NCBI GenBank assembly: GCA_030248195.1
Contig: JASAND010007811.1
Coordinates: 27,732 to 91,731, forward strand
Origin: Trissonchulus latispiculum
Taxonomy: Eukaryota; Nematoda; Enoplea; Enoplida; Ironidae
Direction: 5' to 3'
Length of the DNA stretch: 64,000 bases
Positions 28,107-51,380 of this stretch are shown here, piece after piece (the stretch's first letter is position 1; each line of letters opens with the position of its first letter). A program made the position numbers and the translations under genes. The notes under the pieces were generated by a model, which was not told the origin of the DNA, did not search any database, and was given only the letters and a program-made list of their open reading frames with translations.

Positions 28107-28113
28107 GCTCTAC

Positions 28114-28469: not shown

Positions 28470-28482
28470 AGAGGGGGTAATC

Positions 28483-29064
28483 TGTAGAATATTTCCTTGA
28501 TTTTACCCTAAATTATTCAAAAGTGGGTGCTAACTTCATCAAAATCAATCTAAATTTGACTGCTGTGTACGGTCCAACGCCGTACATAGCTAATACATCT
28601 TCATCGCCATTTTGATTACAATTTTAGTCAGTCTGGTTTTCAACTTTGGGATAAGCGGCGGCTTTGGGCGCCATTTTGGATTACTGCGATTCACCGGTCT
28701 GACTTGACTGTCAGTTGGGGGGCATTTTGGGGTCACACCCATATTTCTATCTAGGAGCTATACACAGTTTGTTATTTTGCTTTGGGAGTCTCATACCAAA
28801 CATTGTGCTTGCCGATTTGTTTTGTATTATATTTGTGAGTTTCATTTAAATTCATGGAAATGTTATTCTGTGTTTGAAAGTAATCAGAATTGGATTTTGG
28901 TATTTGTTTTGCAAAGTAAATCCGTGTAAATTAGGGCGTGCCATTTATTTTAATTAGGATAGCGATTAAGTAAGGATTGAATCAGACATGTTACACACTC
29001 GCACGAACCTTTAATCTTTATTGAACATTCGAAATTATTTACTGTGAATATTCTAAATTCTACA
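28483..29064 (+). repeat. 5' LTR of the giant element
   Basis: 582 bp, TGTAG...TCTACA. It matches 50000-51254 once the TRIM and its 4-bp duplication are removed. Confidence 0.9.
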
Positions 29065-29067
29065 AAC

Positions 29068-29082
29068 TGGCGACCGTAACTC
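29068..29082 (+). other. Primer-binding site
   Basis: TGGCGACCGTAACTC starts three bases after the 5' LTR. A TGG start is expected for pairing with a tRNA CCA end. The first ten bases equal those of the TRIM at 50441. The tRNA species is not determined. Confidence 0.75.
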
Positions 29083-29092
29083 TCGAGTAAAT

Positions 29093-32000
29093 ATGTCTGA
29101 TTCTTCCCCCCGCCTTACTCGCTACCTCAAAAAATTGCGGGACGGCACTGCCCGACTTTTTTCCGAATTACCAACCGGGCAAGCACCCGAAATTTCAGAT
29201 AGTTTTTTAAATCAACAATTTTTCCAAAATCGTCGGTCGACAAATTTGGGGGGAAGCGAGTTGGGGGGGTCAACCCTCCCCCAAATTTCTGGGGGTGCGG
29301 GCGTATCCGCACGGGTATCAGTTGGGGAGCGGGGGAGACAGAATCTCCCCCAAAATGTTCAAAATTTTTCCCAAAACCAGAACCCCCCCCGCAATTCTAC
29401 CGATCTCCCCCAAAATTTCGGGGCTGTTGGGGGGTCTGAAAATGTTGTAGGTGTACGTAGGTGTACCTCAGTGGAGGTGTTGGGGGGATCAAATCTCCCC
29501 CAAAACTCTCAGAACCCCCCCCCAAAATCCCATAAATTCCCCCCAAAATTTCCAGAATCCCCCCCAAAATTCTCAGAATCTCCCCCAAAATTCAGCAAAT
29601 TCCCCCCAGAATTTTTCGAATAATCAACCCCATTTTAGTTTGCAGATCCCTCAATCTGCACCCCCCAAGTCATAATTTCGTCGCCATCCCCAAATTCCGA
29701 ATTTGATCAATTGCAGGGGGAACTCCCCCAACCCCAAAATCAAGATTTTTTTCAACCAGAAAATTCGGAAAATCGGCTTTCCCAAAATTCAGTCCCTTCA
29801 CCTATAATTTTTCGGGGGGCTGTCCGCCCTCCTACCCCCCCTCGCACCAGACGTAATTTTACCGCTGGAGAACTTTTGCCCACAGGGAAAACCTCCAGCA
29901 GTAATTTTAATTTCTCTGGTGCTCTACAAAATACTTGGGGGGGACCTACGGAGTTACACCTATCAAACTTGCGCTCCCCCCAATCCACAAGGGTTGTCCC
30001 TCCCCAAAATTTGCAGCAGAATCATACACTGGACCAGCGGGAGACCCGGGTCAAAACGATTGGGGGGCCAGTTTCTGCACCCCCACAAATCACTCCCCAG
30101 CCTGTAGAAAATCCCACTACCCCCCAACATTCTGAAAACTCAAATTTTCGACGCGATTTTGACGATTTTATCTCTCCCCGGTTTGATGCTGCAAAGGCAG
30201 CTAAGGAAGTAGTTTCGGCCTTGTTGGGCTCGGGGGAAGCCCCCCAAAATTACCTGTCCCCCCTTCAAATACGTATTCTCAGGCAAAAATATCGCAAAAT
30301 TCTGTCAACATTTCAAATAATGTGGGTTTTTCTTCTGTACAGGCAGGTGGGGGGGCGCCCCCCCAAATCACGGGATTTTCCAACCTGCTCAAATTCCAGT
30401 GGCGGGTGACCAACCTCCTCCTAATTCGGGTGATTCCAAACCAGGATCTGTTTATGATTCTGCTTGTAGTAAAAATTCTGTGGTTTTGATCCAGCCTGGA
30501 GGGGACCCTATACCCCCCCTATCTACGTATTTACCCCAACCTGTCTACTCCCGGGAAAATTTCCAAAATTCTCAAACTTTCCAAAATTCTCAAAATTTCC
30601 AAAATTCTCAGAATACGTATGCAACCGGGTCTACAACCCAAATACCCCGTCCTTCTCATATTGGTGGGATCGTTTTTCCTCGGGATCAGCACGGAAATTT
30701 GCTACCAAACCAACAAATTGCCCCTTCTCACATTCAAATTCAGAAAAACCCAATTTGTCAGGGGGGCCCCTCCGCCCCACGTTTGTATCATACTCAGCCT
30801 CCTCCCTCTCCACCTTTGCAAATTCCCCCTCCTACATCTCAAAATCCACCATTGGCCTCCCCAGAAAGAATGGCCAACCAGAATTTTTTGAATCAAGGGG
30901 ATCCTCGTTATTACCCCGTCCACCCGAGGTCTTATGGCCAACATTTGTACGAGGGTATTCAACTTGCAGCCCCAGAACCCCATATGCAACAACAATTACC
31001 CCAACTCCGCTATCAGCCCCCAAATTCACAACACCCTGAGGGTCTATATCTTGTACGTACCCCAGCAAATTTCAATTATGACCGTTTGGAACAACAAGTT
31101 TTCGAAAACCCAGTTATTCGGGAATTAGATAATAATCATTTGTGGGAGGGGTGCCAACAAAATTTGCCCCCACTACAGGTCCCTCCACTTTTACCACAGC
31201 AGGTCCCCAACAATCCCTACTATATGGCGGAGATGGTGGCCTCGCATGCTGGTGCGGCTGATTATGTATCAGAAAATCGCCTTGCAGGACCGGCTGAAGT
31301 TCCGCGGCAGCAAGAGCAGCGCACGCCCGCGCTTTCCCTAAGGGAAGGTAAAGGCGTAGCGTTGGCTCCTGCTGGGGGCGCCCCTTCTTCGGGAGGCTCG
31401 CCCTCAGTACAGCAAGATTTTGTCGCGGGGCCTCCTTCGGCGCCTGCCCAGCTGTATCCGGCTTGCGAACAGTCACCACCTCCCCCTCCACCATCCCAAC
31501 AAAATATAAATTCACCTCCTCCCTTAAAATTTTCGGAACCTCCTTCATCTGCGGGTACCCACTCAAATTATTCAGTCAATAACGTGGGTAAAAAACCGGG
31601 AATCCCTAAATGTCCGCGACACCCAACTCCTACTACTATGGAAGCTGCCGACATTTCAGTCCCAAAATTTGACACGGGTCTTTTTCGGTATTATTTAGAA
31701 GTTTTACGGGATGTCCCCCGGTATGACCCCAAGTACGCATATTTCGAGGATTGGTTACCCCAATTTGAGTCGGCAGTGGCAGTTCATGCAGTGCCTCAGG
31801 AGCAGTGGGGGCGCCTTCTTTGGAATAAACTAACGGGGAAAGCTCAAATTTTCGCCTCTCGCTGTGGCCCACAGGTCGTGGAGTCCTATTCAGGATTTTT
31901 AGAACTGATAAAATCGCAATTTCCAAAACCGCAACTTTCACTGAGGGAGCGGCTCTCGGCTTTCGCACACCTAAAGCAACTTCCCAATGAGTCCGTTCGG

Positions 32001-32297
32001 CATTATATTTCAGAATTACAAGCGATGGCCCTCGACCTGTGGGATACACAAGAAGAGCGCGAACAAGAATGCGTTCAACAACTTTTTGCGGGGGTGCATG
32101 ACAAATTTGCTTCGGCATTAGCTTCGCTTTATTTACACCAACGCCCCACTATGCAGGACGTCCGCCGCATTATTGATCGCTTGGAATCTCGGGAGGCCCG
32201 TCCCATGGAGGGTGATACCCTCTCGTATGACCTGCCAATCTACTATGTCGAAGAGGGGGGCACCGACAAAAAAAACCCAACCCTCAAAAACTACTGA
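29093..32297 (+). pseudogene. Gag region, broken reading frame
   Basis: The ATG at 29093 opens a low-complexity N-terminal region rich in Gln, Asn, Pro and Phe, encoded by repeated CAAAATTTCC-like words. The coding frame moves between 29093-29623, 29451-29675, 29711-30409 and 30399-32297. Changes lie at C or G runs near 29515, 29660 and 30345-30365. The last piece contains a retrotransposon Gag (capsid-like) domain from about residue 414, with an FEDWLPQFESAV-like start and a later LSAFAHLKQL...VRHYISEL segment. Gag forms the particle that packages the RNA. The prion-like QN-rich leader is unusually long for a Ty3/gypsy Gag. Confidence 0.75.
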
Positions 32298-32976
32298 CAC
32301 TCCCTCACAGTCCAACCTTGAAGTCGCGGCCTCCCGTTTAGGTTTTCGGGAAATGAAGGACTGGTTCGAACAACACCTTCAGGAAGCCTTAAATAAATGG
32401 GAGGAGGAAAAACGGAAAAAATTTTCTGCCCCTTGTCGTTATTGTAAAAAGCGGGGCCACCCATCCGAAAAATGCTGGGAACGTTATCCCTCGAAAGCCC
32501 CTCCTGACTACAGAAATCGCCCACCCCCAGAACGGGTCGACCATGTTATGTATTCACAGAACGCTTACCCTTCCCAATATTCGGGGCCCTCAAGTTATCA
32601 ACAACAATATTATCCCACAAATTATAACCCTACTCCTTTATTGTCTCAATACGTACCCCCACCTCAAAATCCCCCCCCCAGTTCAATCTTCTGTTCCCCT
32701 TCAAAATTTTCAACCTGTACAAAATTCCGGGGTTCAAACTACGTATATTCAGGGGCAAAATCCCCAATCAGCGGCGGCTGCGACCTCCGCGACGCCCACT
32801 CCGGCACCATTTCAGCGCACTGTTTCCCTACAAAATGCTGGAGTGCCAAATCTGTCTCAAACTTTTGTGCGCGCTTCGGATTCGGGAGTTGTGGGAAATT
32901 CTACACCTTCCTTGGGTGGGAAGCCCCCACTACCCTCCCAAGGTATGACTTTACAACAAGCAAATCAAATGTTTGA
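32173..32976 (+). pseudogene. Nucleocapsid zinc-knuckle part of Gag
   Basis: This frame continues Gag after a break at a G6/A8 run near 32255-32275. It contains a CCHC knuckle, CRYCKKRGHPSEKC, from codon 88 (32434), spaced CX2CX4HX4C, which binds element RNA. It is followed by a Tyr/Gln/Pro-rich stretch and loses the frame at a C9 run near 32675. Confidence 0.75.
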
Positions 32977-35056
32977 GCAATTTAATATTTCAGTGGTCTC
33001 CGCTCGTGCGCTCAGCAAGGCCTCAAAAGGGGAGGAACCTGCCCCTACTGCCTCTCCCACTTCAGAAACAGTAAATACTTTAGATTCACAACATTTGGAT
33101 TTAACCATGTCCCAAGAACAGTTGTGCAATGTTTTTTCCAAAATGGTTCACAATTTTAATAATTTACGTTCTATTCAACAGGAAACTTTTGATTTTATGC
33201 AACAATATTATGACGTTCTTTCCCAACAAATTCGGGACGTGGCTTTTCTTTTAACACGTACCTGCCCCGATCACCCAGAATTTGACTCTATCATGTTTCT
33301 TGAGGAACACCCCTCCCCTTCTTGGACAGCGGGTTTTTCTCCGGTTTTGGGAGGGGCACCCCCCACTCCCTCAGCTGAGTGCCGGGCCCAGACGGCCTCG
33401 GTGGCCACAGAAACAGAGGAAACTTCTACATCTACGCTAGTTCAACAGGAGGAAAAACCTCTGTTGGGCCATCTGACTTCAATTGCAGTAACTCCCGGGG
33501 GTCCCTCTGACCTGGAATCCGAGCAGGTCCTAGCCGCCGCTGATAATATGCCAGCTTTAGTGGTCACGTCTGGCACTACAAGAATTTTGGCAATAATTGA
33601 TTCAGTGGCTTCAATTTCAATTATCAGTCCCCGGACAGTGCAAAGAATTTTGGCGGGTGGGGCTGATGTCCGGTTCGACCGTCCAGATCCAATTACGGCA
33701 GTAACTTCTAGTAATGCTCCCCTCGAAATTTCTGCAAAAGTTTTTGTAATTTTTTCTATTGGTTGCAAAGAATATGGTTGATCTTTTCATATGGCCCCAC
33801 AATTTTATCGGGATATGCTCATTGGTACAGACTTTATGAAAACCTTTCATTGGGATTTATTATTTTCCACAAACGAAGTTAATATGCAAGGCTTTCGTGT
33901 ACCTTTACTTTCATCAACTGAAATTCGGTCTGAATTTTTGGCAAATTGGTGCGATGAAGCACCCGCAGTCATGGCCGTTGACATTTCTGTACCCCCCTCC
34001 TCGGAGGTATGGGCACCTGCCCGTATCTCCTCCACTGTCCGGGGTCCTTTGTGTTTTTTCAACCCTATGGAGTCTCTTATGGCTGATTACAAAATTTTAC
34101 CTTATGCGGGAGTGGTTCAAATTTTAGAAAATTTCTTCGAATTTCGGATGGTCAATCCTACCTCAACAACTGTCCAGGTTCCTCGGTCGACTGTCATTGG
34201 TTCAGTCGTCCCCGTGCAGGATTACTCGGCCCAAACACCTTGCCCGGGGGCAAATTCCATTTTTACACCGGCACAAGTACATTTGGAAGAATTTTCTCGG
34301 GATCTGATTTACGCAGTTGATACATGTATGGGCATGCCTCGCTTTCGAGAAGGATCGCTTTTCGATCCATATTTGAAACATTCACTGCAAGATGATATGG
34401 AAATTGTTCTTCACTGCCCAGAAGAAGGCATGGACGCTGACATTTTTTCGAAAGAGGGGGTAGGCCACCCCCTCGAACAAGAACAAGAACACCTTGAGAT
34501 CATAAAAGAAAACACGAGTTTAGCAAAAGCCTTAGCTGCCCCCCCTGAGCCACCAAAATTTTCGAAAGAGGGGGTAGCCACCCCCTCATCATCTGAAATT
34601 GGACCCTTAACGCCATGTTTAATCCCTTTTGATCAATTGTCTCCTTTACCTGAGAATTTGAAGCGCCCCCTACCTCTGATATCTGTGGGTTTTTCTGACA
34701 TGGTGCAATATTGGGTCGAGTTGCCCTGCCGAGGTCAGGTGGAACCTGCTGTCAGTGAGGACTGTCTGGACCCTGGTCTAAACGACCCTCTTGACGGACC
34801 TCCCGGTGCGGTATCCCCACAGGGAAGCCAAACCGGGAGGAATGATATTCCACCTGCCCTCTCCGAGGACCTGGCAATAGAAAAAGAACTTGAACCTCCC
34901 GTTCAAGGATCTTGGGTACCGGTAAAATTTCCTAGATCTTTTCATCCAGGGGAGACTGGGTATACGTATTTAAATAGAGAAGAACTTCTACAAAAGCGCA
35001 TCACGCCTGATTCGGAGTCCGCAACGGTGGATTCCCCAAATGGGAATGCCACGTAA
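32543..35056 (+). pseudogene. Gag-pol linker and aspartic protease region
   Basis: Open from about 32.68 kb, with one in-frame TGA at 33779-33781 and continuation in the same frame to a TAA at 35054-35056. A retropepsin-like segment (LAIIDSVASISIIS, catalytic Asp at 33599-33601) is visible, followed by FMKTFHWDLLF, where related proteases have a G/TDF motif. The catalytic triplet reads DSV where DSG or DTG is expected. The remaining ~400 codons before RT are acidic and Pro/Glu-rich and not recognised. Confidence 0.6.
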
Positions 35057-35116
35057 CAAAAACTGGTTGAATTAGTCAATTCACCAACGTTTGCGGACGC
35101 CGAAAAACGCGCTCTC

Positions 35117-37164
35117 TTGAACCAAAAAATTCAATTTCTAGATTGTTGTTTAACTCGTCGAAATCTGCGCCGGTTGCGTCTCATGATTCTAAATTTTCCA
35201 TATATCTGGGATGCAGCTGGAGGTTGCGGAAAAACCGATATAGATTATCACTATATTGAAATTGAGCCGGGAAAACGCCCAATAAAGGCACGGGCCTATA
35301 AAGTCAACCCTGCTCAAAAACAAATTATTGATGCCAAATTGGCAGCATGGCTTGAACAAGGACTCATACAGCCCTCTAGAAGTCCCTGGGCCTCCCCAAT
35401 TATTTTAGCCGCAAAGAAAGACGGGGATTGGCGTCTTTGTGTCGATTATCGCAAATTAAACGCTATTACCAAAAAAGACTGTTACCCTATTCCCAGTATA
35501 TTCATGGGCTTTTTGAATCAATTTTGGGTCATTCAATTTTTTCTAAATTAGATTTGGCTTCGGGTTTTCACCAAATTCCTATTTATCCCCCCGATTGCGA
35601 AAAAACCGCTTTTATAACCCACTCAGGGCTGTATGAATTCAAGGTCATGCCTTTTGGCCTTTGCAACGCTCCCTCAACCTTCCAGCGCATCATAGACCGG
35701 ATAATGGAAGGCTTTACAGTTTATATTGATGATGTTCTAATTACTAGTTCCACTGAAATTGATCACTTGGACAAACTTTTGAAGGTCTTTTTACGTTGTT
35801 CAAGAGAGCACGTTATTCTCAAACTTTCAAAATGTGAATTTGCTAAATCTCAAATGCCCTTTTTGGGACACGTACTCTCCGCGTCTGGGATTTCCACCGA
35901 TCCGGAAAAAATTCGGGTCGTCAAAGATTTTCCTGTTCCTCAGAATGTCAAAGATATTCAAAGTTTTCTTGGTCTTGCTGGTTACTATAGACGTTTTGTC
36001 CCAGATTTTTCTAAAATTGCCCACCCTTTGAATTCTCTACTCAAAAAAGACGCTGAATTTGTTTGGAGTAGTGCGTGTCAGCTGGCATTTGAGACTTTAA
36101 AAGAAAAACTTATCACTGCTCCGGTGCTAGTATATCCTGATTTTTCTAAACGGTTCACTCTGGCCACGGATGCCAGTTTTCAGGGCATTGCAGCCGTGCT
36201 CCAACAAACGGATGACCAAGGTAAATTTCATCCGGTTGCATATGCCGCCAGGGCGCTGAATACAGCTGAAAAGAACTACCACGTAACCGAATTGGAGGCG
36301 TTGGCTATATTTTTCGGTATTTCTTATTTTCAACATTATTTGATTCTTTACGAATTTGATGTAATTACTGACCATAAAGCCCTAGAATACATGTTGGGTG
36401 ACCAAGTGGTCCCTAAAACAGCTTTGGGCCGCATTGCCCGTTGGCGGTCATTTCTGCGATCTTTTCGATTCCGTGTGATTCAGCGCCCTGGCATCACAAA
36501 CGGGGCTCCAGACGCCTTGTCTCGTAATCCTCCTCTAGAGGCCGGCTCTTTTGCTGACCATCCCAAAATTCCTGAATTTTTATTTGCAATCACAAATCTA
36601 GAGGAGGAATACGAAGGGCCGGAGGACCCACTGGCATCCGAGGCTGGTATTGAAATTTGGAAACAAGCTTTACAGTCTGACCCTTTTACAGCTAATATGA
36701 TGAATTTTCTTCAGAATAAAGTTCTCCCACAAAATCCGGTTGAAGCTTATAATATTCGTAAAACTTCTTCTGATTATTATATTGAAAACGATATACTACG
36801 CCGGAAACTAAAATTTAGACGTCGTGATGCGCTTAAACTTATTGTGGTACCTAAAGATTGTAGAAAATACGTATTTGATGAATGCCATAATACTCTATTT
36901 GGTGGTTGTCATAATGGGAGGGACCGAACTCAGGGCATGATTGCCAACAAATACTTCTGGGAAACTTTAACACATGATGTAAATAAATTTATTGATGCTT
37001 GTCAAGTGTGTGCAGCCTGTAATCCCGGGCCTAAAAAACCACAGGCTTGGATGCGTTTTTTACACCGATGGAGGCTCCCTTTGAACGACTTTCTATGGAT
37101 GTTATGCATGCCCCTACTACCCCTTCAGGAAATTCTAAAGTCTTGGTCGTTGTCGATTTTCTAA
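35117..37164 (+). pseudogene. Reverse transcriptase and RNase H, one frame break
   Basis: RT begins in frame 35117-35551 (RPIKARAYKVNP, then the GDWRLCVDYRKLN block) and continues in 35428-37164 after a one-base shift near 35495-35505, not in a homopolymer. The catalytic YIDD is at 35722-35733. The RNase H segment has TDASFQG, ELEALAIF and TDHKALEYM, the conserved acidic motifs of Ty3/gypsy RNase H. The frame then runs into the integrase zinc-binding HHCC module (H...H...CQVCAAC) at about 36880-37020. A second shift lies at a T6 run near 37055. Confidence 0.85.
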
Positions 37165-37931
37165 CTCGTTGGGGGTGGGCTTTTCCTATGCAAAACGAAC
37201 AAACTCATACTATTGCTAAAAATTTTGCCGAAAACATTTTTGCAGTTCATGGGGCTCCTAGAGAAATTCTCACTGATCGGGGTGCCCCCTTCTGTTCATC
37301 TCTTATGGAGGAATTGTGTAAACTTATGGGTACTAAAAAGGTACGAACTACCGCCTACCACCCCCAAACCAACGGGGCATGCGAACGTTTAAACGGTACC
37401 CTAAAAGGTCTACTACGAAAAGCTCTTCTAGGTTTTGCTAGACAGTGGGACGAATTAATCCCATGGGTTTTGTTCGTATACCGTTCAACCCCCCATACCT
37501 CCACCGGAGAATCGCCTTATTATCTTTTGTTCGGACGGGATCCCAGGCTGTACTCCCAAAATTTTCTCACTCAAACTGATCCTCTCACTCAAAATTTTAC
37601 ACCGTCATACGTACAAGATTTACGTGAAAAATTACAATATTCTCGACAAGTTTTGAAAGAATATACGCGTGAAATTCTTGAAAAACGAAAAAGTACGTAT
37701 GATGCAAAAACGAAAGTTATTGAATATAAAGAAGAAATGTTAGTCTGGAAAGATGTTTCCCAAGCAAATATTCCAAAAGGTGCCAGTAGAAAATACCTCC
37801 CCATGTTTGAAGGCCCCTTTCGAGTTGTAAAAGTTGTTTCCCCCACAAATGTAGAAATTTTGTCCCTAAATCGTGTTGATGCTGCCCCGGAATTGATTCA
37901 TGTAAACCGGTTAAAACCTTTTCAGGTATAA
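37047..37931 (+). CDS. Integrase core and C-terminal GPF module
   Basis: DDE integrase catalytic domain with D in LSMDVMHA, D in LTDRGAPF and E in GACERLNGTL. It ends in a GPY/F-type C-terminal module (MFEGPFRVVKVV) and HVNRLKPF. Joins element ends to host DNA in the nucleus. Uninterrupted here, but its zinc-binding N-terminus is in the previous frame. It stops at 37931, 10 kb short of the LTR, which in ordinary Ty3/gypsy elements would be near the 3' end. Confidence 0.88.
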   Translation: MDAFFTPMEAPFERLSMDVMHAPTTPSGNSKVLVVVDFLTRWGWAFPMQNEQTHTIAKNFAENIFAVHGAPREILTDRGAPFCSSLMEELCKLMGTKKVRTTAYHPQTNGACERLNGTLKGLLRKALLGFARQWDELIPWVLFVYRSTPHTSTGESPYYLLFGRDPRLYSQNFLTQTDPLTQNFTPSYVQDLREKLQYSRQVLKEYTREILEKRKSTYDAKTKVIEYKEEMLVWKDVSQANIPKGASRKYLPMFEGPFRVVKVVSPTNVEILSLNRVDAAPELIHVNRLKPFQV

Positions 37932-38395
37932 TTTTCTGTCGGGGCCCATTAATTTAGTCAAATCTTATTTATAAAACCCTTTCAATATGATTCTCTTCTT
38001 TTCTTTAAAAAGTTCTTGAATTCTCACACTAGAATAAATTCTACAAATTCTAAATTCCTTGACCTCATCTTTATAATAAAGGGTAAAAACACCCTTAGCT
38101 TATGTTTGTGTTACCCAGTACTGTTGCCTATTATTTTAACAATCTACTAATTTTATTTTTACCTTCCTTTTAACCCTTCTACACATTTTATATTTACAAC
38201 TTTTATAATTTATCTTTTATTCCTTTCTATTTAATCCCATTGTTTTGTATATATGTATATTGTATGTTATGTAATTTTCTTATTTAAGTAAGCGCTTGAT
38301 TCTATTTTGAAACTGTTTCCTGTTCTGCCACTGAATTTGGACTTTCAGTGTCGGTAGGTTTAAATTATTATAAAACTTTTCTATTTCTAGTCCTA

Positions 38396-38995
38396 ATGCC
38401 TTACGGAGCTTCTGTTCTTAGTAAGTTTTCCCCCCTACACCCGTCCTCTACCCTTCAGGTCATGCCTATTTCAGAGGACTTACCTGAGGACGAGCTCAAA
38501 ATGGACAGGAAAACCTGGTGGACTATCAAACTTAGTAAAGATGATCCTTCTTGGGATTATATGCCTTTCCCACCCACACCCGGGTATCGAACCGCGAGGG
38601 GAGGTGCTCCTTGTATCCGTGATTCTAAATCTTTATTTAATGTAGCTGTTGAAGATTCTGAACATCCTCCCCCTCCAGCACCAGTTCCAGAAACTATTAC
38701 GGCAGCAAAAGAGTCTGCGCGTATACAAAAAGTCGCTGCTTTATTTGGATATTTTCCTACACCCGCTACCTTTGACCCCCCTCAAGACCTTCGTGATTTA
38801 GGTGCTCGACCCGTCACTGTAGCAGAACCTGACCTCACTCACCCACCTGGTTTAGTTAGGTGGACTGATGTTCGAAAATCAAAATTTCAACCGGTCGACC
38901 AAGAATTTCTTTTGGAATATCACCATCGAAATATTGTCAAACATTTCAAAGGTTTCTATAAAAACCCTCCACCAGAGGATTCTGAACAAGAATAA
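38396..38995 (+). CDS. Accessory ORF-A, 199 aa, unknown
   Basis: First extra ORF after integrase. The ATG at 38396 sits 6 bases after a ctatttctag acceptor-like site; a further site (actttcag, 38347-38348) with a tiny leader and a gtaggt donor lies just upstream. The protein shares a core with ORF-B: WWTIKLSKDDPSWD, MPFPPTPG, GGAP, a SLFNVAV-like string and FDPPQDL. No signal peptide or membrane segment. The conserved repeated core suggests constraint. No family recognised. Confidence 0.65.
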   Translation: MPYGASVLSKFSPLHPSSTLQVMPISEDLPEDELKMDRKTWWTIKLSKDDPSWDYMPFPPTPGYRTARGGAPCIRDSKSLFNVAVEDSEHPPPPAPVPETITAAKESARIQKVAALFGYFPTPATFDPPQDLRDLGARPVTVAEPDLTHPPGLVRWTDVRKSKFQPVDQEFLLEYHHRNIVKHFKGFYKNPPPEDSEQE

Positions 38996-39155
38996 GTCAT
39001 AGTTCACCCTGCACATATATTGTATGATGTTTTTGTATTATATTCTGTTCTAGGATTTTGTTCTTTGTCTTGGCTCCTTGGTTTCGATTTCTGGAGCTAT
39101 TGATCTAGTCTTTTCTGGTAGGTTTATTTTTCTCATTTTTCTTATTTTAGCAATC

Positions 39156-39734
39156 ATGTCTCGTCAATCTACTAGTTCTCGCCTGGTCTTTGATGAATTT
39201 TCTCTAGATTTGTGCCCTTTTCTACCTATAGAACTCCCAGATATTGACACTCAAAAAAGCCAATGGTGGACCATAAAATTCAGCAAGAATGATCCCACCT
39301 GGGACACCATGCCCTTCCCTCCCACACCTGGGTTTAGAGTCCAAAAAGGGGGCGCCCCCTATGTACGTGAATCTCAATCATTATTCGGCGTAGCAGTTGA
39401 TGATCCAAAATTTCTACAACCTCCCCTCTCAGTCCCAAATTCCTTTTCTACGGCTAAACAACGTGCACGTATGCAGAAATTTGCTGCACTTTTTGGACTC
39501 TATCCCATTCCAGCTATTTTTGATCCTCCCCAAGACCTTTTTGATCGCGGGGCACGACCCATTTCTGTCTCACAGCCTGCACTCACTCCACCAGGCCGTA
39601 TCAATGACACTGATATCAGTGATCTAAAATTTCAGCGAGTCGATCCGCTCTACATTCAGCGAGCTCATTTCCATACCATAGCTACACAGTCCATTGGCCG
39701 CTGTTTTCGCCCCCTACCGATGAATTCACATTAG
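39156..39734 (+). CDS. Accessory ORF-B, 192 aa, paralogue of ORF-A
   Basis: The ATG at 39156 follows the acceptor-like cttattttag (39149-39150). The ORF-A core is conserved as WWTIKFSKNDPTWD, MPFPPTPGF, GGAP, SLFGVAV and FDPPQDLF. The hydrophobic codons just upstream in frame (39078-39155) would be removed by splicing and are not a signal peptide. It arose by tandem duplication within the element; different residues are retained in the variable parts. Function unknown. Confidence 0.65.
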   Translation: MSRQSTSSRLVFDEFSLDLCPFLPIELPDIDTQKSQWWTIKFSKNDPTWDTMPFPPTPGFRVQKGGAPYVRESQSLFGVAVDDPKFLQPPLSVPNSFSTAKQRARMQKFAALFGLYPIPAIFDPPQDLFDRGARPISVSQPALTPPGRINDTDISDLKFQRVDPLYIQRAHFHTIATQSIGRCFRPLPMNSH

Positions 39735-39920
39735 GTAGTACAGGTATACAAATTTTGTGTTTTTACGTGTATTTTATGTATTATATTTGTGTTTCAGGAA
39801 TCTGTGTTTGTGAAAAATTTGGGCTGCTATTCTTGATTTTCTTTCCCGTTTGGTTTTAAAAAATTTTGAGGTTAGTAATCACTTTTCTTTCATAAATTTA
39901 CTGACTATTTCTATAAAATT

Positions 39921-40466: not shown

Positions 40467-40622
40467 AATTAAAATTTTGTGTTTTTCTTGTGAACATTAA
40501 TTTATTTTTGTTTAGGTCTTTCTTCCCTGCGTGCTTTGGCCACTTAGACTACAGTCCCGGTAATTGGATTTGGTGGGTAAAAACTTTATTTGTATTGGAA
40601 TTTTCTCGTATTTAGAATAACT

Positions 40623-41633
40623 ATGTCAGATAATCCTGCTCGTACGGGCCGTTGTGTTGGGTTCTCGGGAAACTTGTCGGGGTTTTATCACCCCCGACCT
40701 GTTCTCCCTCATCCGGGTTACCCAAATTTAGTCACCCCCCTACTACTCACCCAACTCAAAATTCTACTCAAAATTCGGATTCTCTTTTAATGATTGCTCC
40801 CCCCACCACAAATTCTCCTCCTTCCCCTGAATTTTTACCTGGTGGCTTCTTAAGTTCAGAAATTCCAGTTTCACGTTCTACTGTAACGATAACTACCACT
40901 ACTCCTACTTGTTTTTATAGCGGCGATATTGATACACTTTTGCGTGATGCTCGCGCAGCTCGAAATTCTTCTGCAAGACTACCTTCGTATCTTTTTTCTT
41001 CAAATCTTACTATTTCTTCTGCACCTCAAAATCATTTCTACCAATCTATTCCAGAAATGCTTATTTCTCCTATTTCAAATTGGGAGGTTTCGGAGGTGGA
41101 TGGTCACCTTCAACCCCGCCGTCCACGAATGTCCACTAGATTCACCCCCCCTCCCCCTCCCCCCCCTTTACCCCCGCCCACCGTCTATTTCCCGAGAACC
41201 TTCTTTTCTAGGAAATCCCATATCTATTTCTGTGTCTACAGACGACTTACCGGGTCCATCTACTACACGGGCTTCAAATACTTCTCAAAATTCTCGTTCT
41301 GTTTCTATGGTTCAGGGAGGGTCTCAAAATTCTTGTTTGATCCCATTATTTCAACTTCCGTCTGGGTACATGTTAGTTCCAGAATTTCCTCGTTACCCTC
41401 GCCCAGGTTTTTGTGATATGTGTGGCCAACCGGCTTTACGTACGTATCACCGTGGGGATGTTTTTATGGCTCCCCCTCCAAATTTTTTCGACGAAAATCT
41501 AACGGGTCCTACTTTACCAAATCCGTCCTCAAATTCCCAAATGTTTGCCAATTCTTTAATTTCTGATTTTTCTTTCTGGCGCTGGGACCCCGAAAATAGA
41601 TGTCTACGTCCGGCTTGGGGCACTACATTCTGA
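40623..41633 (+). pseudogene. Accessory ORF-D, CxxC-HRG protein with two frame breaks
   Basis: The ATG at 40623 lies 7 bases after a cgtatttag acceptor-like site (40614-40615), itself preceded by a leader (40516-40572) and a gtaaaa donor-like site. The frame changes at C runs near 40735 and 41150-41175. The C-terminal part carries GFCDMCGQPALRTYHRG (a possible metal site, CxxC then H) and ends FWRWD...CLRPAW. Same terminal layout as ORF-E. The N-terminal half is Ser/Pro/Thr-rich and probably disordered. Confidence 0.55.
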
Positions 41634-41920
41634 GCACCTCATATGTTTTTGTTTTGTTTTGAGATAAGTAATTGTTATACAGTATACGTATGTATCAATC
41701 GTAATTTTGTGTAATCACTCATAACCATTTTATGTACTATGCATGTATTTGTTATGTGGCTTATATATATAATTTGATTCTAATTTAACTAATGCATTTA
41801 AAATTTCTTTTGTTTAGGATTCCTACAATTTGGACCAAAAGGTATCTATTCTCTCTCAATCTTCAAGTTGGTGGGTCGGTAAAACCTTTTTGATTTCTTT
41901 TCTATTTTCATGAAATAAAC

Positions 41921-42616
41921 ATGGCTAGTGCGTCGCCTCACTCGTCTCCTGACTCTGATGAAATTACTATTATTGCAGTTACTTCTGCTTCTTCTCTGGT
42001 TTCTTCATCCACAAATTTCAACGCTATTCCTCCTCAAAATTCTCCTTCTTTGCAAAATTTACCACCTTTGCAGCGGGCTCCTTTTGTTCGACCTATAGTC
42101 CCTAGGGAACACACACCCCCTATGAATATTCGCCCGCGGCACTTTTCTCCAATTTTGCATTTTACACCTCCAAGAAATTCTTCGAATCTTTCTCCACCTT
42201 TTTCACCGGTGTACGGCAGCATGCCCCCACCGGAAAGATTTCCTGCATATTATGAAAATAGGCCTTTACCGCCACCTTCAGTGGTTCGAGTCCAACCAGT
42301 GGTGGTACGCCCGCCCCTCCCTATACGTGTACCATTAGTTCCACCAAATTTAAATATTGTTACTTTACATCAACCTCCACCTGGACACGTTACAATTCCA
42401 CTTGATGCACGTTTTACTCGTCCAGGCAATTGTCCGTATTGTGGGCAACCAGCCCCTCATATGGTCCATAGGGGTGAATTTTCTATAAATTTTACTGAAA
42501 GAACAAATTCACGTCAATTAGGTGACCCTCGGGCATCACACCCAGCTTTTCTTTCAAATGTGTCTTGGTGGCGCTGGGATTCCTTGAATCAATGCCTGCG
42601 CCCCCAAGGCTGGTGA
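41921..42616 (+). CDS. Accessory ORF-E, 231 aa, paralogue of ORF-D
   Basis: The ATG at 41921 is preceded by a ttgtttag acceptor-like site (41816-41817) and a leader with a gtaaaa donor-like site. Long Pro-rich N-terminus, then GNCPYCGQPAPHMVHRG and a WWRWD...QCLRPQGW end matching ORF-D. The repeated CxxCGQPA...HRG motif could bind zinc (inference). Uninterrupted. Confidence 0.6.
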   Translation: MASASPHSSPDSDEITIIAVTSASSLVSSSTNFNAIPPQNSPSLQNLPPLQRAPFVRPIVPREHTPPMNIRPRHFSPILHFTPPRNSSNLSPPFSPVYGSMPPPERFPAYYENRPLPPPSVVRVQPVVVRPPLPIRVPLVPPNLNIVTLHQPPPGHVTIPLDARFTRPGNCPYCGQPAPHMVHRGEFSINFTERTNSRQLGDPRASHPAFLSNVSWWRWDSLNQCLRPQGW

Positions 42617-42913
42617 GGCGACGTACATGCAGTTTTTACGAATTTTATGCAATATTTTAAATTTTGATTTGTTCATTAGACTTTTTACTTTAACAATTTA
42701 TTACGTATTAATTGCTCGATGTCTAATTAAAATTTTTCTTTTATGTTTAAGGTTGTCTTGTTGGCATGTCACCAGTACGGGCCTCCACTCCTACCCTGCT
42801 TCACCTGTGATTACTGTTTGTTTTTGTTTAGTTTATTGTACTGTATGAGCGGTTGGGGGTTTTTATACTGAGTCTGTTTTGTGAAAAATTTCTGTTTTTC
42901 TGAAAATTTGATC

Positions 42914-45415
42914 ATGAGTGGAAATTCTGAAAACACTGACGAGCCAACCCCCCCTTCAGAACAACAAAAATCTCCGCTTCAGTCCCCCTTCCCAAAAACT
43001 GAAGCCGCAGAGGAAGTTTCTACTGTCGAGATCTATATGGAAACTTCCTCTGAAAGCACGGACCAGTCAGCTTCAGGGGTCAACCCGACCCCTGGTTGCT
43101 CTTCTTGGAATCAGGCGGGTATTAGTTTAATTCAGAGATTGCCAGAACTGTTTCCCCCTGACCAGCCGGAGATCCCGCGTTTTCCCCATAGGGAAGATAA
43201 AGGACCTTCGTCTGGCCCGGTTCAGGATTCAGTTCTACGCAATGCTGCTGAAGCTTCCCACAGATCTGCTGATGACCCGGTCACAAATGCGAACGCGCCC
43301 TTGTCACGCAGCGCGCTTGAGGATAAATTGTTTGCGACCAAAGTTTACCCTCTGAATATCCCTGCTTGGGCCGAGGCACAGGAACTTCGGAATTGGGAGG
43401 CTTCAGTCGAACGGTGGAAAAATGTGCCTATGGCACTTAGGTCTCCGTGCCCTGAGGGCACGATCACGGTCATTACAAAATTGCAGCAACTCTACGAGGA
43501 GGTTCCGAACATTTTTCAGAAAGCTACAGCTGCAAAATTTCTCACAGTCGCTGGTCTCAAACATCAAGGTTTCTTCCCCGACCCCTCCAACCCCTCCACC
43601 CTTTCGGTTCTGATGTTTGCCGTTCCGAGAGACCCTGCGCGGTTTTCTTCTGAAATTGATCCCCTTTGCTTTCATGCCCCTGCCTTTTGTCTGCATAAGC
43701 CCAATCTACAAATTTTTGTGTTTTTGATTCCTCGAACTTACCTCGACGTCCCCTCCTGGTCTTTAATTCGCTACGGTTTACAACCGCTTTTGTTCAATAC
43801 GCCTTTCCCAGTTTTTTCATTTTCGGCTTTGGATACTGTCCGGCTTTTGGCTTCCACCCTGGGCATTGACCCTCGAAATTCTATTGTTGATATGAGTTAC
43901 GTCGCCTATCATGTGAAATCCCGGTCCTCCCCCAGCGATATTCAAGAGCGCAGAGTCTCTCATAAGAAGGGCAAACATCTGTGGGTAACTACTCCCGTCA
44001 GGGGTGCGAAACCCCAACCCACGGGTCCTCCGGACCTGAAAGGCAGATTCGATCGTAACCATAAGTGGTTCCAGGAGAATCTCCTTGTGTACCCTTCGTC
44101 TGAAATCAAACGAATCCGTTTGACTGAAAATTCCCTCACTCCTCTCCAGGAGACGGAGGTCCTCAATTGGGCTCTCGTCCAGATCCGAGACACATACATG
44201 AGCGTGCATGTTCTATCCTTGCACCACAAACTTTCTGAGCAGGATCTCGTGATCCTTCGCAAGACCTATGCATATGCTCAACGCGGCCAAGAAAAGGCCA
44301 TTTCTGGCATTAACACTTTGCCTCTGACTAAAACGCCTAATATTTTTGTTGATCCTTCTTTTGACACAGTTTGTGAAGTTTTTCTCAAAAACGAGGCACG
44401 CACAGGCAAAAGCCGCACAAAAGCGGTTATGGCCGCAGTCAAACCTGATCTGTCAAAACGAAACGAGCTGAATCCTCGCATTCCGGACGTGGCCACCAGG
44501 AATAAGGAAATTTTCACTAGTGTGGCTGCCCGGGTAAATCCAGCGCCTTTAACTTCAAAACCGGAGAAGGTTCCGGGGGCAGCGAAACGCGCTGCTGCGG
44601 CTCTTCAGGCGCAGCAGGATGAACAGGCAGTTGAGGCTCAGGAGGATCCGGATCAGTTGCCGGTCGACTACGCTCCGGACGAGTCAAATTTGGTTGGCGG
44701 TGCGTCATCGGATGACGAGTTCCGTTCGCGGTCTCCTATCCGATCCGTCCCGTCAACTCCCCGCCGTCTTGTCATTGACGAACAAGAGGCTAACCAGGTT
44801 GGGTCTCCTTTGGTGTCGGGTTCCGGGCCTTCGGATTCGGGGCGACCCTCGCGCTCGAGGACTCGCTCTGGTCCGCCGCGCCCTGGACTCGTGATCCATA
44901 TGGACGATCTCCCGGGTGCTATTGTGCACGGCTCAGCGCCGTCTCCGGAGCGTGCTCGTATTCCTTCTCTTTTACAGCTACCCTACCAACCTATGCCTCG
45001 CCAATCTCGTTCTGCTAGCGCGGCTTCGGCCTTAGGCCAGGCCTCTGAGAGCTCGTCCGTACCCTCTTGGGTGCGCTCGGAATCGCCTCCACGGCAGCAG
45101 AAAACTACTAAGTTGAGAAAAACTACGGTGTGCACGTCCACCGGTGAAGTTTCTGTGCCTCAACCGGTCTACTCTACTTCGGATCCAAGCAGGGCGTCTA
45201 GCCAAGAATCTTTGTACCACAGACCGCAGCAAAGCATGCCAGCTCTAAATTTCTCTGGAATTGATACTGGCTACATTCTTGACCGGGGACCTTCGGTTCC
45301 TACAGCAACTATTCCAAATTTGGCTGCTCCCATCCCTTCCCTACTCCCCCCTCCCCGCGTACAGCTTCCCCCCCACAGTTTCCTTCCCCTACCCCTCAGC
45401 TTCCTCCAAATTTAG
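42914..45415 (+). CDS. Accessory ORF-F, 833 aa, possible exonuclease-like fold
   Basis: The ATG at 42914 lies downstream of a tttaag acceptor-like site (42750-42751). Coding continues past 45415 by frame changes in C runs, so ORF-F and the NADAR ORF are probably one long frame. The middle (about 43320-44290) loosely resembles DEDD 3'-5' exonucleases: a LASTLGIDPRNSIVDMSYVA segment and a later IRDTYMSVHVLSLHHKL segment. The DxE of motif I is not seen (LMFAVPRDP there), so an active nuclease is doubtful. The C-terminal third is Ser/Arg/Pro-rich and disordered. Confidence 0.5.
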   Translation: MSGNSENTDEPTPPSEQQKSPLQSPFPKTEAAEEVSTVEIYMETSSESTDQSASGVNPTPGCSSWNQAGISLIQRLPELFPPDQPEIPRFPHREDKGPSSGPVQDSVLRNAAEASHRSADDPVTNANAPLSRSALEDKLFATKVYPLNIPAWAEAQELRNWEASVERWKNVPMALRSPCPEGTITVITKLQQLYEEVPNIFQKATAAKFLTVAGLKHQGFFPDPSNPSTLSVLMFAVPRDPARFSSEIDPLCFHAPAFCLHKPNLQIFVFLIPRTYLDVPSWSLIRYGLQPLLFNTPFPVFSFSALDTVRLLASTLGIDPRNSIVDMSYVAYHVKSRSSPSDIQERRVSHKKGKHLWVTTPVRGAKPQPTGPPDLKGRFDRNHKWFQENLLVYPSSEIKRIRLTENSLTPLQETEVLNWALVQIRDTYMSVHVLSLHHKLSEQDLVILRKTYAYAQRGQEKAISGINTLPLTKTPNIFVDPSFDTVCEVFLKNEARTGKSRTKAVMAAVKPDLSKRNELNPRIPDVATRNKEIFTSVAARVNPAPLTSKPEKVPGAAKRAAAALQAQQDEQAVEAQEDPDQLPVDYAPDESNLVGGASSDDEFRSRSPIRSVPSTPRRLVIDEQEANQVGSPLVSGSGPSDSGRPSRSRTRSGPPRPGLVIHMDDLPGAIVHGSAPSPERARIPSLLQLPYQPMPRQSRSASAASALGQASESSSVPSWVRSESPPRQQKTTKLRKTTVCTSTGEVSVPQPVYSTSDPSRASSQESLYHRPQQSMPALNFSGIDTGYILDRGPSVPTATIPNLAAPIPSLLPPPRVQLPPHSFLPLPLSFLQI

Positions 45416-47691: not shown

Positions 47692-49983
47692 TTCTATGTG
47701 GCGGGGTGGGTATGTCTTTGTTTATGTTGGCCCGTATTGGTATAAAGGGTGGTGGTTCTATGATCTCTAAATTGTCTTCACTTGCATGCATAAATTTTCA
47801 CCTTATCTTCCTCGTAGCACTGCTTCTAGATTTCTTAGTGCATTTCTTGCTTTCTTCTTTTCATTTTCGTGATCAATTCATATTTTCTCTTGTCTTCATG
47901 ATAAATTTTCTTTGGTCTTTTTATGAAAATTGATTAAATTCCATACTTTTATCAATTATTTAAATTTGGATTCTGTTACAAATCGACTAAATTTGAATTT
48001 TATTACAAATTGAATTGATGAATAACTCATTCTTATTAATTTCGAAACTCTTGAATTATTACATTCTACACGGGTGGGTATTCTGTATTACTTGCATTTT
48101 ATCATATTAAATTTTAACCGTCTAGGCAATAGTACTGGGGTATAAATAACACCGTGCCGTACCTCGGCGGGTCCGTGGCTGCTCGTCGCCTGCGCTATCC
48201 CCATAGGGAAGGTAACGGTGGGCGGTCAGCCCCGGACCGGCAATTTTGACTCTTGAGAATTATTTTCCGTTTTCAATGATTTGGCGTCTCCTACGGTGCC
48301 TGCGTTTTCCCCATAGGGAAGATAACGGTTCCGTCGGTTTCTGCCTACACTCTCTAAATTAATCGGGCCTCATATATATGTATTGTGGGCTTTTGCCCAA
48401 GTATCTCGTTTGTTACTGTTAGGCGTTGTGCCTACATGCTTATTCACATATATACATGCCGTATATTATTCCATTTTTGTTTGTTTGTTCTGTATTATGC
48501 TAACTGTTCCCCTTCCCTCCCCCCCTGTCCCCTTTGACGGCGAGTGTTCCCCTGTTATACTGTTTGTCTGTTACTGTAATTCCCCTTTTTTGTGATACGG
48601 GTTGGCCCCGATGATTCTATCTAGTGTTTGGACGGGCCTGGTTTGTTGCCTGGAAGGCTGGCGGTGATGGCTTTGGTTTAGCGGGCGCTTGATGCCGTGG
48701 GGCATCCGCCCAGTGGTCCGGAGGTCGTGGTCCGGTGATATGATTTGGGATTTTTCCCTTGGTGCTTGGACTTTGAAATCTCTCCCGCAGCCTGGAGCTA
48801 CTTAGGATTGTTTGAACTTTATAAAGTCAATTTTTGTGATTGTTGTGATAAACCCGGTTGTGTGTCCTCTTACCTCGTCCGTCCCCCCTCCCTCTTTTAC
48901 TAACCATTATTTCACTGCTTATACTTTCTATGTTCTCTACAGATTCAGCGTTAACCGTGGTTGGGTGGGGTCTATATTTGGTCATTTTCGTGGGTTTCTT
49001 CTCCTGATTCGAAATTTTCTATAAATTTTAATTAAAATCCTGTTTTTTCTACTCTTCATATTTCTGAGATATTCTTTTCTTATGGGCTCCCTCTAGCTCA
49101 GCTTGTCTGTTCTATATATGCTGTATGTTATTTCATTCTAATCATTTTCGGGTCTTCTTGTTTCTCTTAACATGGTGTTTGCTTCACTTTTCTTTCAAAA
49201 ATAACCACGGGTTTACTTTACTTCAAAATTTTCTACATATACTGCCATTATTTTTGCCTTATATTTGCCATGTCTACTTCAAGCAGCTATGCCAACTTTG
49301 CTTTATTTTTGTTCTTTATCATCTTTGGCATTTATTAAAGATTCTATTATATTTTTGTATGTTGGGGCAGGCAGGTGCTCAGGAGAGACCACCATTTTGA
49401 GTTGAAATACTCTTCTTTCTGATTTCTTTCGCTCCCTGGGAGCATTTGAAATTGAGTCTCTCCTCGAGTTTCGTTGCCTTCCCCCATAAGATCTGACTTT
49501 ATGTGTCAATTGCTTTTATAATTATTTCTCTATATTTCTAAATATACTTGAAAATTTTCTATTCTATTTTTCGAGCGCTTCTGTTGGCACTCGCTTTTGA
49601 TGATGCTATTTATATATTATATTATTATTATAAATTTATATCTTCGGATTATTTCCTGTTTTGTTATGTGCGCTCTAGTCGCGGCTGAAGGACTCGTCCC
49701 AATTATTTCTGTATTTGTATGTCGGCAAAGTCCGTTATATGTTGAATGTACCCCCGGTATGTTCCGGCGTAGTTTTACCCGTGTCTCGGTAAAACCCGAA
49801 AATGTATAAAACATGGGGTCGAGTGATTCCCGGTATCCAAAGTGAACCGAGGAAATATTTTAGCATTTTTTTCTATTTTTTTCTAAAACGCATTTTATCT
49901 ATACTAGTAGTTACGATACGTAGGCTAACGCGATTTTATTACTAACCTATGTGCCTGGAGGCCGCGGCGAGGGCGCGCGTTTC
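47692..49983 (+). other. Non-coding 3' region of the giant element
   Basis: 2.3 kb of T-rich sequence with no credible ORF. A palindromic word TTCCCCATAGGGAAG (or TATCCCC...) recurs at about 48198-48213 and 48307-48323, in each case followed by RTAACGG; it also occurs in coding DNA near 43180. May serve RNA packaging, export or 3'-end functions (inference). Confidence 0.5.
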
Positions 49984-49994
49984 AAAAGAGGGGG
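49984..49994 (+). other. Polypurine tract
   Basis: AAAAGAGGGGG directly upstream of the 3' LTR; the plus-strand primer of reverse transcription. Confidence 0.75.
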
Positions 49995-50284
49995 TAATCT
50001 GTAGAGTATTTCCTTGATTTTACCCTAAATTATTCAAAAGTGGGTGCTAACTTCATCAAAATCAATCTAAATTTGACTGCTGTGTACGGTCCAACGCCGT
50101 ACATAGCTAATACATCTTCATCGCCATTTTGATTACAATTTTAGTCAGTCTGGTTTTCAACTTTGGGATAAGCGGCGGCTTTGGGCGCCATTTTGGATTA
50201 CTGCGATTCACCGGCCTGACTTGACTGTCAGTTGGGGGGCATTTTGGGGTCACACCCATATTTCTGTTAAATATCAGCAACACA

Positions 50285-50435
50285 GAAAGGTTGAAATCAG
50301 CGTAATAATCTACTCTCAACGTCCGGGGATGTGGCTTAGTGGTAGAGCGTTCTACTCTTAAACCAAAGCTCGGTGGTTCGATCCCCGCCCTGGAAACTTT
50401 TCTTCACATCTTTCAGATCCTGATTTCAACCTTTC
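50285..50435. repeat. 16-bp inverted repeat enclosing the tRNA-like segment
   Basis: GAAAGGTTGAAATCAG (50285-50300) is the exact complement of CTGATTTCAACCTTTC (50420-50435). The repeats enclose the tRNA-like part of each TRIM LTR. Confidence 0.85.
50325..50394 (+). tRNA. tRNA-Ala-like sequence in TRIM 5' LTR
   Basis: Starts GGGGATGTGGCTTAGTGGTA, close to the 5' half of eukaryotic tRNA-Ala. It keeps a Pol III A box (TGGCTTAGTGG, 50332-50342) and B box (GGTTCGATCCC, 50375-50385). The anticodon and T stems do not pair well, so it is a promoter-bearing relic and not a tRNA. The second LTR has the same sequence (50820-50889). Confidence 0.65.
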
Positions 50436-51254
50436 ACATTTGGCGACCGTGCCGTGTCCTTACCGCTCTGAGGAGATGAAGTCGTTTGTGATGCCTGGAA
50501 ATAGTGGAATTGCTGGTCCTTGAGATAATTGGTTTGGTATATGGTGGTCCTCGTGGTGCTAAGGGTTAATATGGTGGTTATTGGTTCTTGTGTGATTTGA
50601 TATACAGGCTCCCGGCTTTGAAGAAGAAAGAAGTAATATGGCCTCGGGTTAGGAGGCAGCCGGGGAGCCGCCCTTAGACCACACTGGTGCTTTGATTTGA
50701 GGACCCGACCTGCAATTCCTGGAAATTCGAGGCCGAATTTCAAATTAGTAAGGGGAGTATGTTAAATATCAGCAACACAGAAAGGTTGAAATCAGCGTAA
50801 TAATCTACTCTCAACGTCCGGGGATGTGGCTTAGTGGTAGAGCGTTCTACTCTTAAACCAAAGCTCGGTGGTTCGATCCCCGCCCTGGAAACTTTTCTTC
50901 ACATCTTTCAGATCCTGATTTCAACCTTTCACATTTCTATCTAGGAGCTATACACGGTTTGTTATTTTGCTTTGGGAGTCTCATACCAAACATTGTGCTT
51001 GCCGATTTGTTTTGTATTATATTTGTGAGTTTCATTTAAATTCATGGAAATGTTATTCTGTGTTTGAAAGTAATCAGAATTGGATTTTGGTATTTGTTTT
51101 GCAAAGTAAATCCGTGTAAATTAGGGCGTGCCATTTATTTTAATTAGGATAGCGATTAAGTAAGGATTGAATCAGACATGTTACACACTCGCACGAACCT
51201 TTAATCTTTATTGAACATTCGAAATTATTTACTGTGAATATTCTAAATTCTACA

Positions 51255-51318: not shown

Positions 51319-51380
51319 GTTCTACCTTTCCAAAAGCGCTAATTACCTTTGATGACTGTACTCGTGGAGTAGAGAATCCG

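Follow-up and report, generated by a model that had tools for sequence, protein, structure and literature searches.

The region described here is a window of 64,000 nucleotides from the nematode Trissonchulus latispiculum (contig JASAND010007811.1, positions 27,732 to 91,731), and positions 28470-51254 of this window hold what is, on balance, probably one damaged copy of a giant Ty3/gypsy element with a genome plan resembling that of complex retroviruses. This estimate is a joint one that applies to the whole explanation developed below: a damaged giant copy, extra open reading frames (ORFs) expressed by splicing, a hairpin serving as a mark for export or packaging, and a NADAR protein acting against host defence. 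The total length is 22,785 bp, or about 22.1 kb once an insert in the 3' long terminal repeat (LTR) is subtracted, and the layout consists of LTR, primer binding site (PBS), gag, reverse transcriptase (RT), RNase H and integrase (IN) with a GPF module, 9.8 kb with seven coding blocks, 2.3 kb of 3' DNA, and LTR. The framework of the element is as follows:

28470..29064, + strand: 5' LTR, about 595 bp, inner termini TGTAGAA...TTCTACA
29068..29080, + strand: primer binding site TGGCGACCGTAAC, directly after the 5' LTR
29093..33781, + strand: gag and the start of the protease (PR), interrupted by stops and by changes of frame; CCHC knuckle at 32434-32475
33782..37931, + strand: pol, with the PR remainder or linker, RT (YIDD at 35722), RNase H, H2C2, integrase core and GPF at 37812; stops and frame changes
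47692..49986, + strand: 3' untranslated DNA, 2,295 bp, purine tract AAAAGAGGGGG at the LTR border
49987..51254, + strand: 3' LTR, split at about 50266-50936 by an insert of about 671 bp that resembles a terminal-repeat retrotransposon in miniature (TRIM)

The assignment to Ty3/gypsy follows from RT and RNase H lying ahead of integrase, a GPY/F module, paired LTRs, a PBS and a purine tract, the last of which is overlapped by the start of the 3' LTR; Pfam matches in pol to RT, RNase H, H2C2 and the integrase core (rve) fall in the order RT-RNaseH-H2C2-rve-GPF. In the aligned blocks of the LTR pair, 280 of 283 and 324 of 326 positions match, with two of the five mismatches at block edges outside the LTR, and inside the LTRs there are three differences in approximately 595 positions. 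A first-pass annotation of the sequence had described a Ty3/gypsy element of about 22 kb with near-identical LTRs, an integrase carrying a GPF module and 2.3 kb of 3' DNA, all of which we confirm; its LTR length of 582 bp is replaced by about 595 bp according to the alignment.

The gag region is long and proline-rich, with a weak match to Retrotrans_gag (E 0.0023, 18.6 bits, under the cut-off of 24.1), and at 29338-29613 C-rich repeats of about 21 nt give rise to repeated SPPKF-like peptides. The present copy, as assembled, is non-autonomous, because gag-pol is interrupted by stops and frame changes and the protease motif reads DSV, where DSG or DTG is expected of a retroelement. Several of the interruptions fall in stretches with homopolymer runs of at least 7, and a part of them may be assembly error; the original element was presumably autonomous. 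A protein search with pol returned E <=0.001 for 5439 of 7961 candidates, and the 120 matches listed have identities of 33-50% over 36-97% of the query, for which reason no close sister element is to be seen among those 120; pol had no match in viral_contigs.

The 9.8 kb between integrase and the 3' untranslated DNA (37932-47691) sets this element apart, and the seven coding blocks found there are the following:

38396..38995, + strand: extra ORF A1, 199 amino acids
39156..39734, + strand: extra ORF A2, 192 amino acids, paralogue of A1
39921..40466, + strand: extra ORF A3, 181 amino acids, possible distant paralogue
40623..41633, + strand: extra ORF B1, reading frame interrupted; paralogous to B2 in its C-terminal part; CxxCGQPA...HRG motif
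41921..42616, + strand: extra ORF B2, 231 amino acids, same cysteine/histidine motif as B1
42914..45415, + strand: extra ORF C, 833 amino acids
45802..47691, + strand: extra ORF D, 629 amino acids counted from ATG; NADAR domain near the C-terminus

The sense strand of this block contains ten stop-to-stop frames of 186-847 amino acids, the top two being of 847 and 655, whereas the longest antisense frame is of 131. In 200 dinucleotide shuffles of the block, the longest frame had a mean of 155 amino acids and a maximum of 273, and frames of at least 180 amino acids occurred at a mean of 0.22 per shuffle and at most three times. Six of the seven extra ORFs are open, unlike the broken gag-pol, and with 9.8 kb, seven blocks and long frames on the sense strand only, the earlier count of about 10 kb of extra genes in at least six blocks after integrase holds. 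The A1/A2 and B1/B2 pairs are gene duplications, with alignment z-scores of 48 and 18, respectively (100 shuffles each), and B1 and B2 have the motif CxxCGQPAxxxxHRG in common; A3 is a possible paralogue of A1/A2, with z 5.2 against A1 and z 2.2, below the shuffle maximum, against A2. Because their codon differences by position are 55/47/99 and the ratio of nonsynonymous to synonymous divergence (pN/pS) is 0.44 (bootstrap 0.36-0.54), A1 and A2 have been kept as proteins by purifying selection since the duplication, their synonymous sites being near saturation (pS 0.69); the signal is weaker for B1/B2 (79/68/90; pN/pS 0.71, bootstrap 0.59-0.87). ORF D may be either a separate gene or a shifted continuation of C, a joint polyprotein requiring about three frame changes in the C-rich stretch between them. 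A candidate kinship of B2 with D (z 3.9, just over the shuffle maximum) was read as an effect of composition.

An env gene was considered and rejected, in agreement with the first-pass annotation: no membrane helix was detected over nine extra stretches (the highest 19-residue Kyte-Doolittle mean being 1.37), and a Pfam scan of 20 frames at E <=1 gave no envelope match. Apart from D, the extra proteins have no credible Pfam match and none in NCBIfam or PHROGs at E <=0.1 (seven stretches were compared with PHROGs), and neither C nor the A alignment retrieved anything from PDB sequences at E <=1. Four of the seven extra proteins (D, C, A2 and B2) were compared with viral_contigs and found no match. 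Structure predictions were of low confidence, with a predicted local distance difference test score (pLDDT) of 34 for A2 with two paralogues and of 31 for the region 43301-44479.

ORF D matches PF08719 (NADAR) with E 1.2e-11 and 45.5 bits, over the cut-off of 35.1, and PHROG 1017 with E 6.2e-11. ORF D aligns at the conserved E, D and W with PDB chain 8bau, which we take to be the Phytophthora nicotianae NADAR protein with chain residues two positions higher, as a tag would give. In that protein, E43, K50, E125, D130 and W133 are among the substrate-binding or catalytic residues, and E125 marks the YbiA type (PMC11543638). ORF D has E-x6-K at 47176 and E-x4-D-x2-W at 47461, each with the published spacing, the equivalence to E43/K50 being by the E-x6-K spacing only and the gap between the two motifs being 13 residues longer. 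With a PF08719 match over the cut-off and residues equivalent to E43, K50, E125, D130 and W133, D belongs to the YbiA-type NADAR proteins, and we predict from its sequence that it is an active N-glycosidase on an ADP-ribosylated substrate, and likely an ADP-ribose-processing enzyme. ADP-ribose-related domains recur in Ty3-type elements. Among the 120 pol matches listed, one protein with a Ty3-type RT (P0108) has a Macro domain after RNase H, and another (P0120) has a NUDIX domain before the protease.

A 40-nt stem-loop, traced from a 13-mer that occurs three times, is present in five copies spread across the element:

31321..31359, + strand: hairpin copy 1, in gag
34800..34839, + strand: hairpin copy 2, in the PR-RT linker
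43169..43208, + strand: hairpin copy 3, in extra ORF C
48184..48223, + strand: hairpin copy 4, in the 3' untranslated region (UTR)
48294..48333, + strand: hairpin copy 5, in the 3' UTR

In every copy the lower stem leads, across an internal 3x3 loop (YGC/AAM), into an upper stem of eight pairs that ends UCCC/GGGA and has one mismatch in two of the copies; the loop measures 3-4 nt. Although their sequence varies, the lower stems mostly still pair, with changes on both sides in six of seven pairs and 82.9% of cells paired. Standard pairs make up 89.3% of 75 cells as compared with 72.0% in shuffles, double-changed cells number 13 against 4.8, and covariation is 0.527 against 0.173 (0/500 shuffles in each case); pairing falls to 37-57% when the partner strand is slid. 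A covariance model (R1) run over the 64 kb on both strands recovers the five copies, all on the + strand and inside the element, at E <=2.6e-11, with the next hit at E 1.3; as these five are its training set, the informative part is the absence of the hairpin elsewhere in the window. A scan of the + strand for shape only gives 39 matches, 11 inside the element and 28 outside, and the addition of loop letters, themselves derived from the five copies, leaves only these five. When each copy is folded by itself and compared with shuffles, 48175-48240 does no better than these (z -0.24, 70/200), and z lies between -2.6 and -5.6 for the remaining four. Where the hairpin falls in coding sequence, the three encoded peptides differ from one another, but RE-x-KG occurs in two of them. 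Rfam gave no match to the hairpin at gathering over the whole window or at E <=1 over 47692-49986, known export element families included, and exact hairpin patterns had no match in viral_contigs or genome_contigs. We infer that the hairpin may function as a packaging or export mark. A possible sixth and diverged hairpin at 29864-29899 in gag, with a perfect 7-bp lower stem and R1 E 4.9, is not claimed as a copy.

The starts of the extra ORFs show a recurrent arrangement of their own:

38293..42914, + strand: splice-like cassettes before A1, A2, A3, B1 and B2, with an acceptor-like site 102-123 nt and a donor-like GT 38-50 nt ahead of the ATG

A donor-like site precedes five of the six ORF starts tested, the scores for A1-B2 being 6.3-9.3 bits, and an AG acceptor-like site lies 53-73 nt upstream of the donor-like site in each of A1-B2. 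The summed best donor scores reach 37.1 for A1-B2 against a shuffle mean of -1.9, and 35.6 against -0.1 with C included (0/500 for both), and three of the five cassette donors are within the 30 best donors of an element-wide scan. Judging by sequence features, splicing is the likely route by which the extra ORFs are expressed.

In the mechanism we propose, the full-length RNA would be translated into Gag-Pol and would also be packaged, while the mRNAs for the extra ORFs would arise by splicing to acceptors situated about 100 nt ahead of each ATG. With a donor-like site lying between the acceptor and the ATG, the mini-exon could be handed on to later genes, just as HIV-1 (human immunodeficiency virus type 1) does with its exons 2 and 3. 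The hairpins would be recognised by an RNA-binding protein and would thereby tag the 22-kb unspliced RNA for export or packaging; candidates for this protein are the B proteins, with their C-x2-C...H pattern. The NADAR protein could strip ADP-ribose from a signal or from nucleic acids of the element itself, and in this way blunt a host defence based on ADP-ribosylation.

A number of observations weigh against this explanation. The gag-pol of the present copy contains in-frame stops and frame changes, and a single copy of the element was analysed; a second copy, sought in eleven 10-kb stretches of other contigs and one of 100 bases, gave no blastn, tblastx or tblastn match, 110 kb being too little for this to carry meaning. 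With respect to splicing, acceptor scores do not go beyond shuffles (151/500 for five units, 87/500 for six), the A1 acceptor is poor (-2.1 bits), ORF C is without a donor (-1.9 bits), the donors available in the leader (near 29086) and within the LTR score weakly (<=6.7 bits), and many coding sites outrank these acceptors in an element-wide scan with the same kind of matrix; the splice windows were moreover chosen after reading the sequence, and the matrices were textbook ones. With respect to D, the score against TIGR02464 is 36.8 bits, under the cut-off of 73.7, the PDB matches are remote (E 0.039, chain 8bau, and 0.23), the R79/W89/R93 spacing is absent, and neither D (7997 best-word candidates scored) nor its NADAR part (246) found a relative among 5.8 billion proteins, D being the only extra protein searched in this manner. 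As to the hairpin, the five sequences used in the pairing counts also served to derive its structure, and the extra block contains just one of the five copies.

The rival explanations differ in where they depart from ours. An unlikely but by no means negligible one accepts that the extra ORFs are resident and has them translated via internal promoters, internal ribosome entry or reinitiation, the motif ahead of them, which is GT-rich (GGTAGGT, GGTTAGT, GGTGGGT), being a promoter or ribosome signal; that acceptors do not exceed shuffles and that no strong 5' leader donor exists would fit this, whereas all five ORFs A1-B2 have both the donor-like site and an AG acceptor-like site upstream of it, in the acceptor, donor and ATG layout of HIV vif and vpr. 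The proposal that the extra frames are chance open frames in the C-rich DNA of a dead element, to which the proline-rich character of several of them and the damage to the copy would lend themselves, is highly improbable, being contradicted by the shuffles, by paralogue conservation and by the NADAR match; this applies to A1, A2, B1, B2, C (by length) and D, the case of A3 resting on length and a similarity that is weak.

On the preferred explanation, the extra genes look long-resident rather than freshly captured, as suggested by the duplications within the block, by selection (clear for A1/A2, weaker for B1/B2) and by the hairpin common to gag, pol, an extra ORF and the 3' UTR; since the hairpin threads gag, pol, ORF C and the 3' UTR, we infer that the block is an old part of the element. 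It seems improbable, then, that 37932-47691 is a recent passenger, whether as a mobile element nested in this one or as DNA of host or viral origin trapped between the LTRs on a single occasion. Such a passenger would account for the single copy, for the want of relatives in limited searches and for the NADAR domains that invertebrate RNA viruses and giant DNA viruses also possess (PMC9503650), but the block has no direct or inverted bounding repeats, all its genes are sense, the A1/A2 pS of 0.69 points to an old family (though not necessarily to diversification inside the element), and the same hairpin in gag, pol, ORF C and the 3' UTR, along with the near-identical LTRs, speaks against it. 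Improbable to a similar degree is that the element is a virus-like agent, now endogenised, which long ago acquired its accessory block through recombination with a large DNA or RNA virus: NADAR is shared patchily among nidoviruses, hepe-like viruses, picornaviruses and nucleocytoplasmic large DNA viruses (PMC9503650), yet the four extra proteins compared with viral_contigs went unmatched, PHROGs matched only D out of the seven stretches, in a family of unknown function, and no env was seen. The "private gene module" of the first-pass annotation therefore stands as a resident-looking, non-env block of about 10 kb, but is not wholly private, given that NADAR occurs in its last ORF and also in gypsy elements of Ectocarpus.

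Several known systems invite comparison. HIV-1 vif and vpr are laid out as acceptor, short exon, donor and then ATG, and RNA structure governs the export of unspliced HIV-1 RNA; HIV-1 belongs to the Retroviridae, the likeness of the present element to it is one of predicted layout only, and env, a criterion for a complex retrovirus, was not found here. Cer1 of C. elegans is gypsy-like, the LTR elements of bdelloid rotifers are smaller than the present one, and the constitutive transport element of Mason-Pfizer monkey virus (MPMV) is a structured retroelement RNA motif. The MPMV element is named in PMC10309623. The present element has two hairpin copies near its 3' end, and its hairpins are separate and spread over 17 kb. 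Cer1, together with its protein CERV, resembles the present element as an LTR element in which an accessory protein from spliced RNA is needed for export of the unspliced RNA; it has one accessory protein, with most exons in the polyprotein reading frame, and no downstream array or repeated hairpin is described in the accessible text (PMC10309623). Bdelloid LTR elements have gained non-env enzymatic ORFs (GDSL, DEDDy) downstream of pol, in the form of one ORF3 type or of a GDSL-DEDDy pair in one ORF (PMC5408684). Burro (GYPSM1) of planarians is gypsy-type and has accessory ORFs and numerous extra domains in an internal region that can reach 25 kb, which qualifies the earlier statement that typical Ty3/gypsy elements carry at most one extra ORF; its extra domains lie inside a giant ORF1 polyprotein and include env homology, BIR, BCL2-like, MATH and ankyrin (PMC6431247). 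The present element, in contrast, has separate ORFs after integrase, no env that we could see and NADAR as its sole recognisable extra domain, and between gag and pol no Burro-type env, BIR, BCL2-like or ankyrin domain was matched by Pfam in 20 frames at E <=1. A YbiA-type NADAR is found in an Ectocarpus gypsy lineage and in ORF1 of the Crassostrea gigas long interspersed nuclear element (LINE) Tx1; in Ectocarpus it is situated in Pol (PMC12477816), whereas the present element, in an animal genome, has it downstream of integrase, in the ORF that closes the gene array. A treatment of retrotransposon accessory domains deals in its first part with helicases (PMC6338049), and a review of NAD and ADP-ribose systems in viruses lacks the words retrotransposon and retroelement (PMC9503650). 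Giant gypsy elements, extra ORFs after pol and a gypsy NADAR are thus precedented separately, and their combination is without precedent in the literature searched, where no gypsy element with a downstream accessory array and either NADAR or a repeated hairpin was found among the papers listed (most subscription journals and all preprints lie outside that literature).

It is possible, though on present evidence doubtful, that a regulatory genome like that of lentiviruses has arisen independently in a lineage of Ty3/gypsy, with six or more spliced accessory genes, an enzyme directed against defence by ADP-ribosylation and a five-copy hairpin bound by an accessory protein of its own, enabling export or packaging of a 22-kb RNA. 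The usual picture of LTR elements is one of gag-pol and, at most, env. If the proposal is true, an element in which no env was seen, with a conserved accessory array, splice-like cassettes and a dispersed RNA signal, would represent an independent origin of retroviral complexity, and it would make testable the questions of how an unspliced RNA of 22 kb is both exported and packaged, by which protein the hairpin is read, and whether hosts use ADP-ribosylation as a defence against retroelements, the last of these being raised because NADAR occurs in retroelements of different kinds, namely the present element, the Ectocarpus gypsy and the oyster Tx1 (PMC12477816).

The surroundings of the element add some further observations. 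Its junctions indicate insertion within one arm of an inverted-repeat element, and no clean target duplication of 4-6 bp is readable. This inverted-repeat element resembles a miniature inverted-repeat transposable element (MITE), with stretches at 28112-28177 and 51255-51320 that are 95% complementary; it was noted at 28112-28467 and 51255-51320, contains C-rich palindromes, and has related pieces at 4006-4138. The TRIM-like insert in the 3' LTR (50266-50936) is younger than the giant element; it has identical direct repeats of 177 bp at both termini, both of which include a sequence resembling a tRNA (Rfam tRNA 20.5 bits, under the gathering threshold of 29), its own PBS at 50441, of which the first 10 bases are the same as in the PBS of the giant element, and a target duplicated over 4-5 bp (TTTC or ATTTC). 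Flank regions with features are 13439-16118, 19914-20318 and 55203-55559, and the flanks include a match to the ligand-binding domain of ionotropic glutamate receptors (PF10613) at 13439-13933, a fragment of a C-5 cytosine methylase (PF00145), and two similar stretches, 15697-16089 and 19916-20308, in inverted orientation to each other; the receptor and methylase fragments point to a probable animal source. Repeats in tandem, of about 135-150 bp, occupy 61022-61708, and a tRNA-Asn gene lies on the minus strand at 22676-22748.

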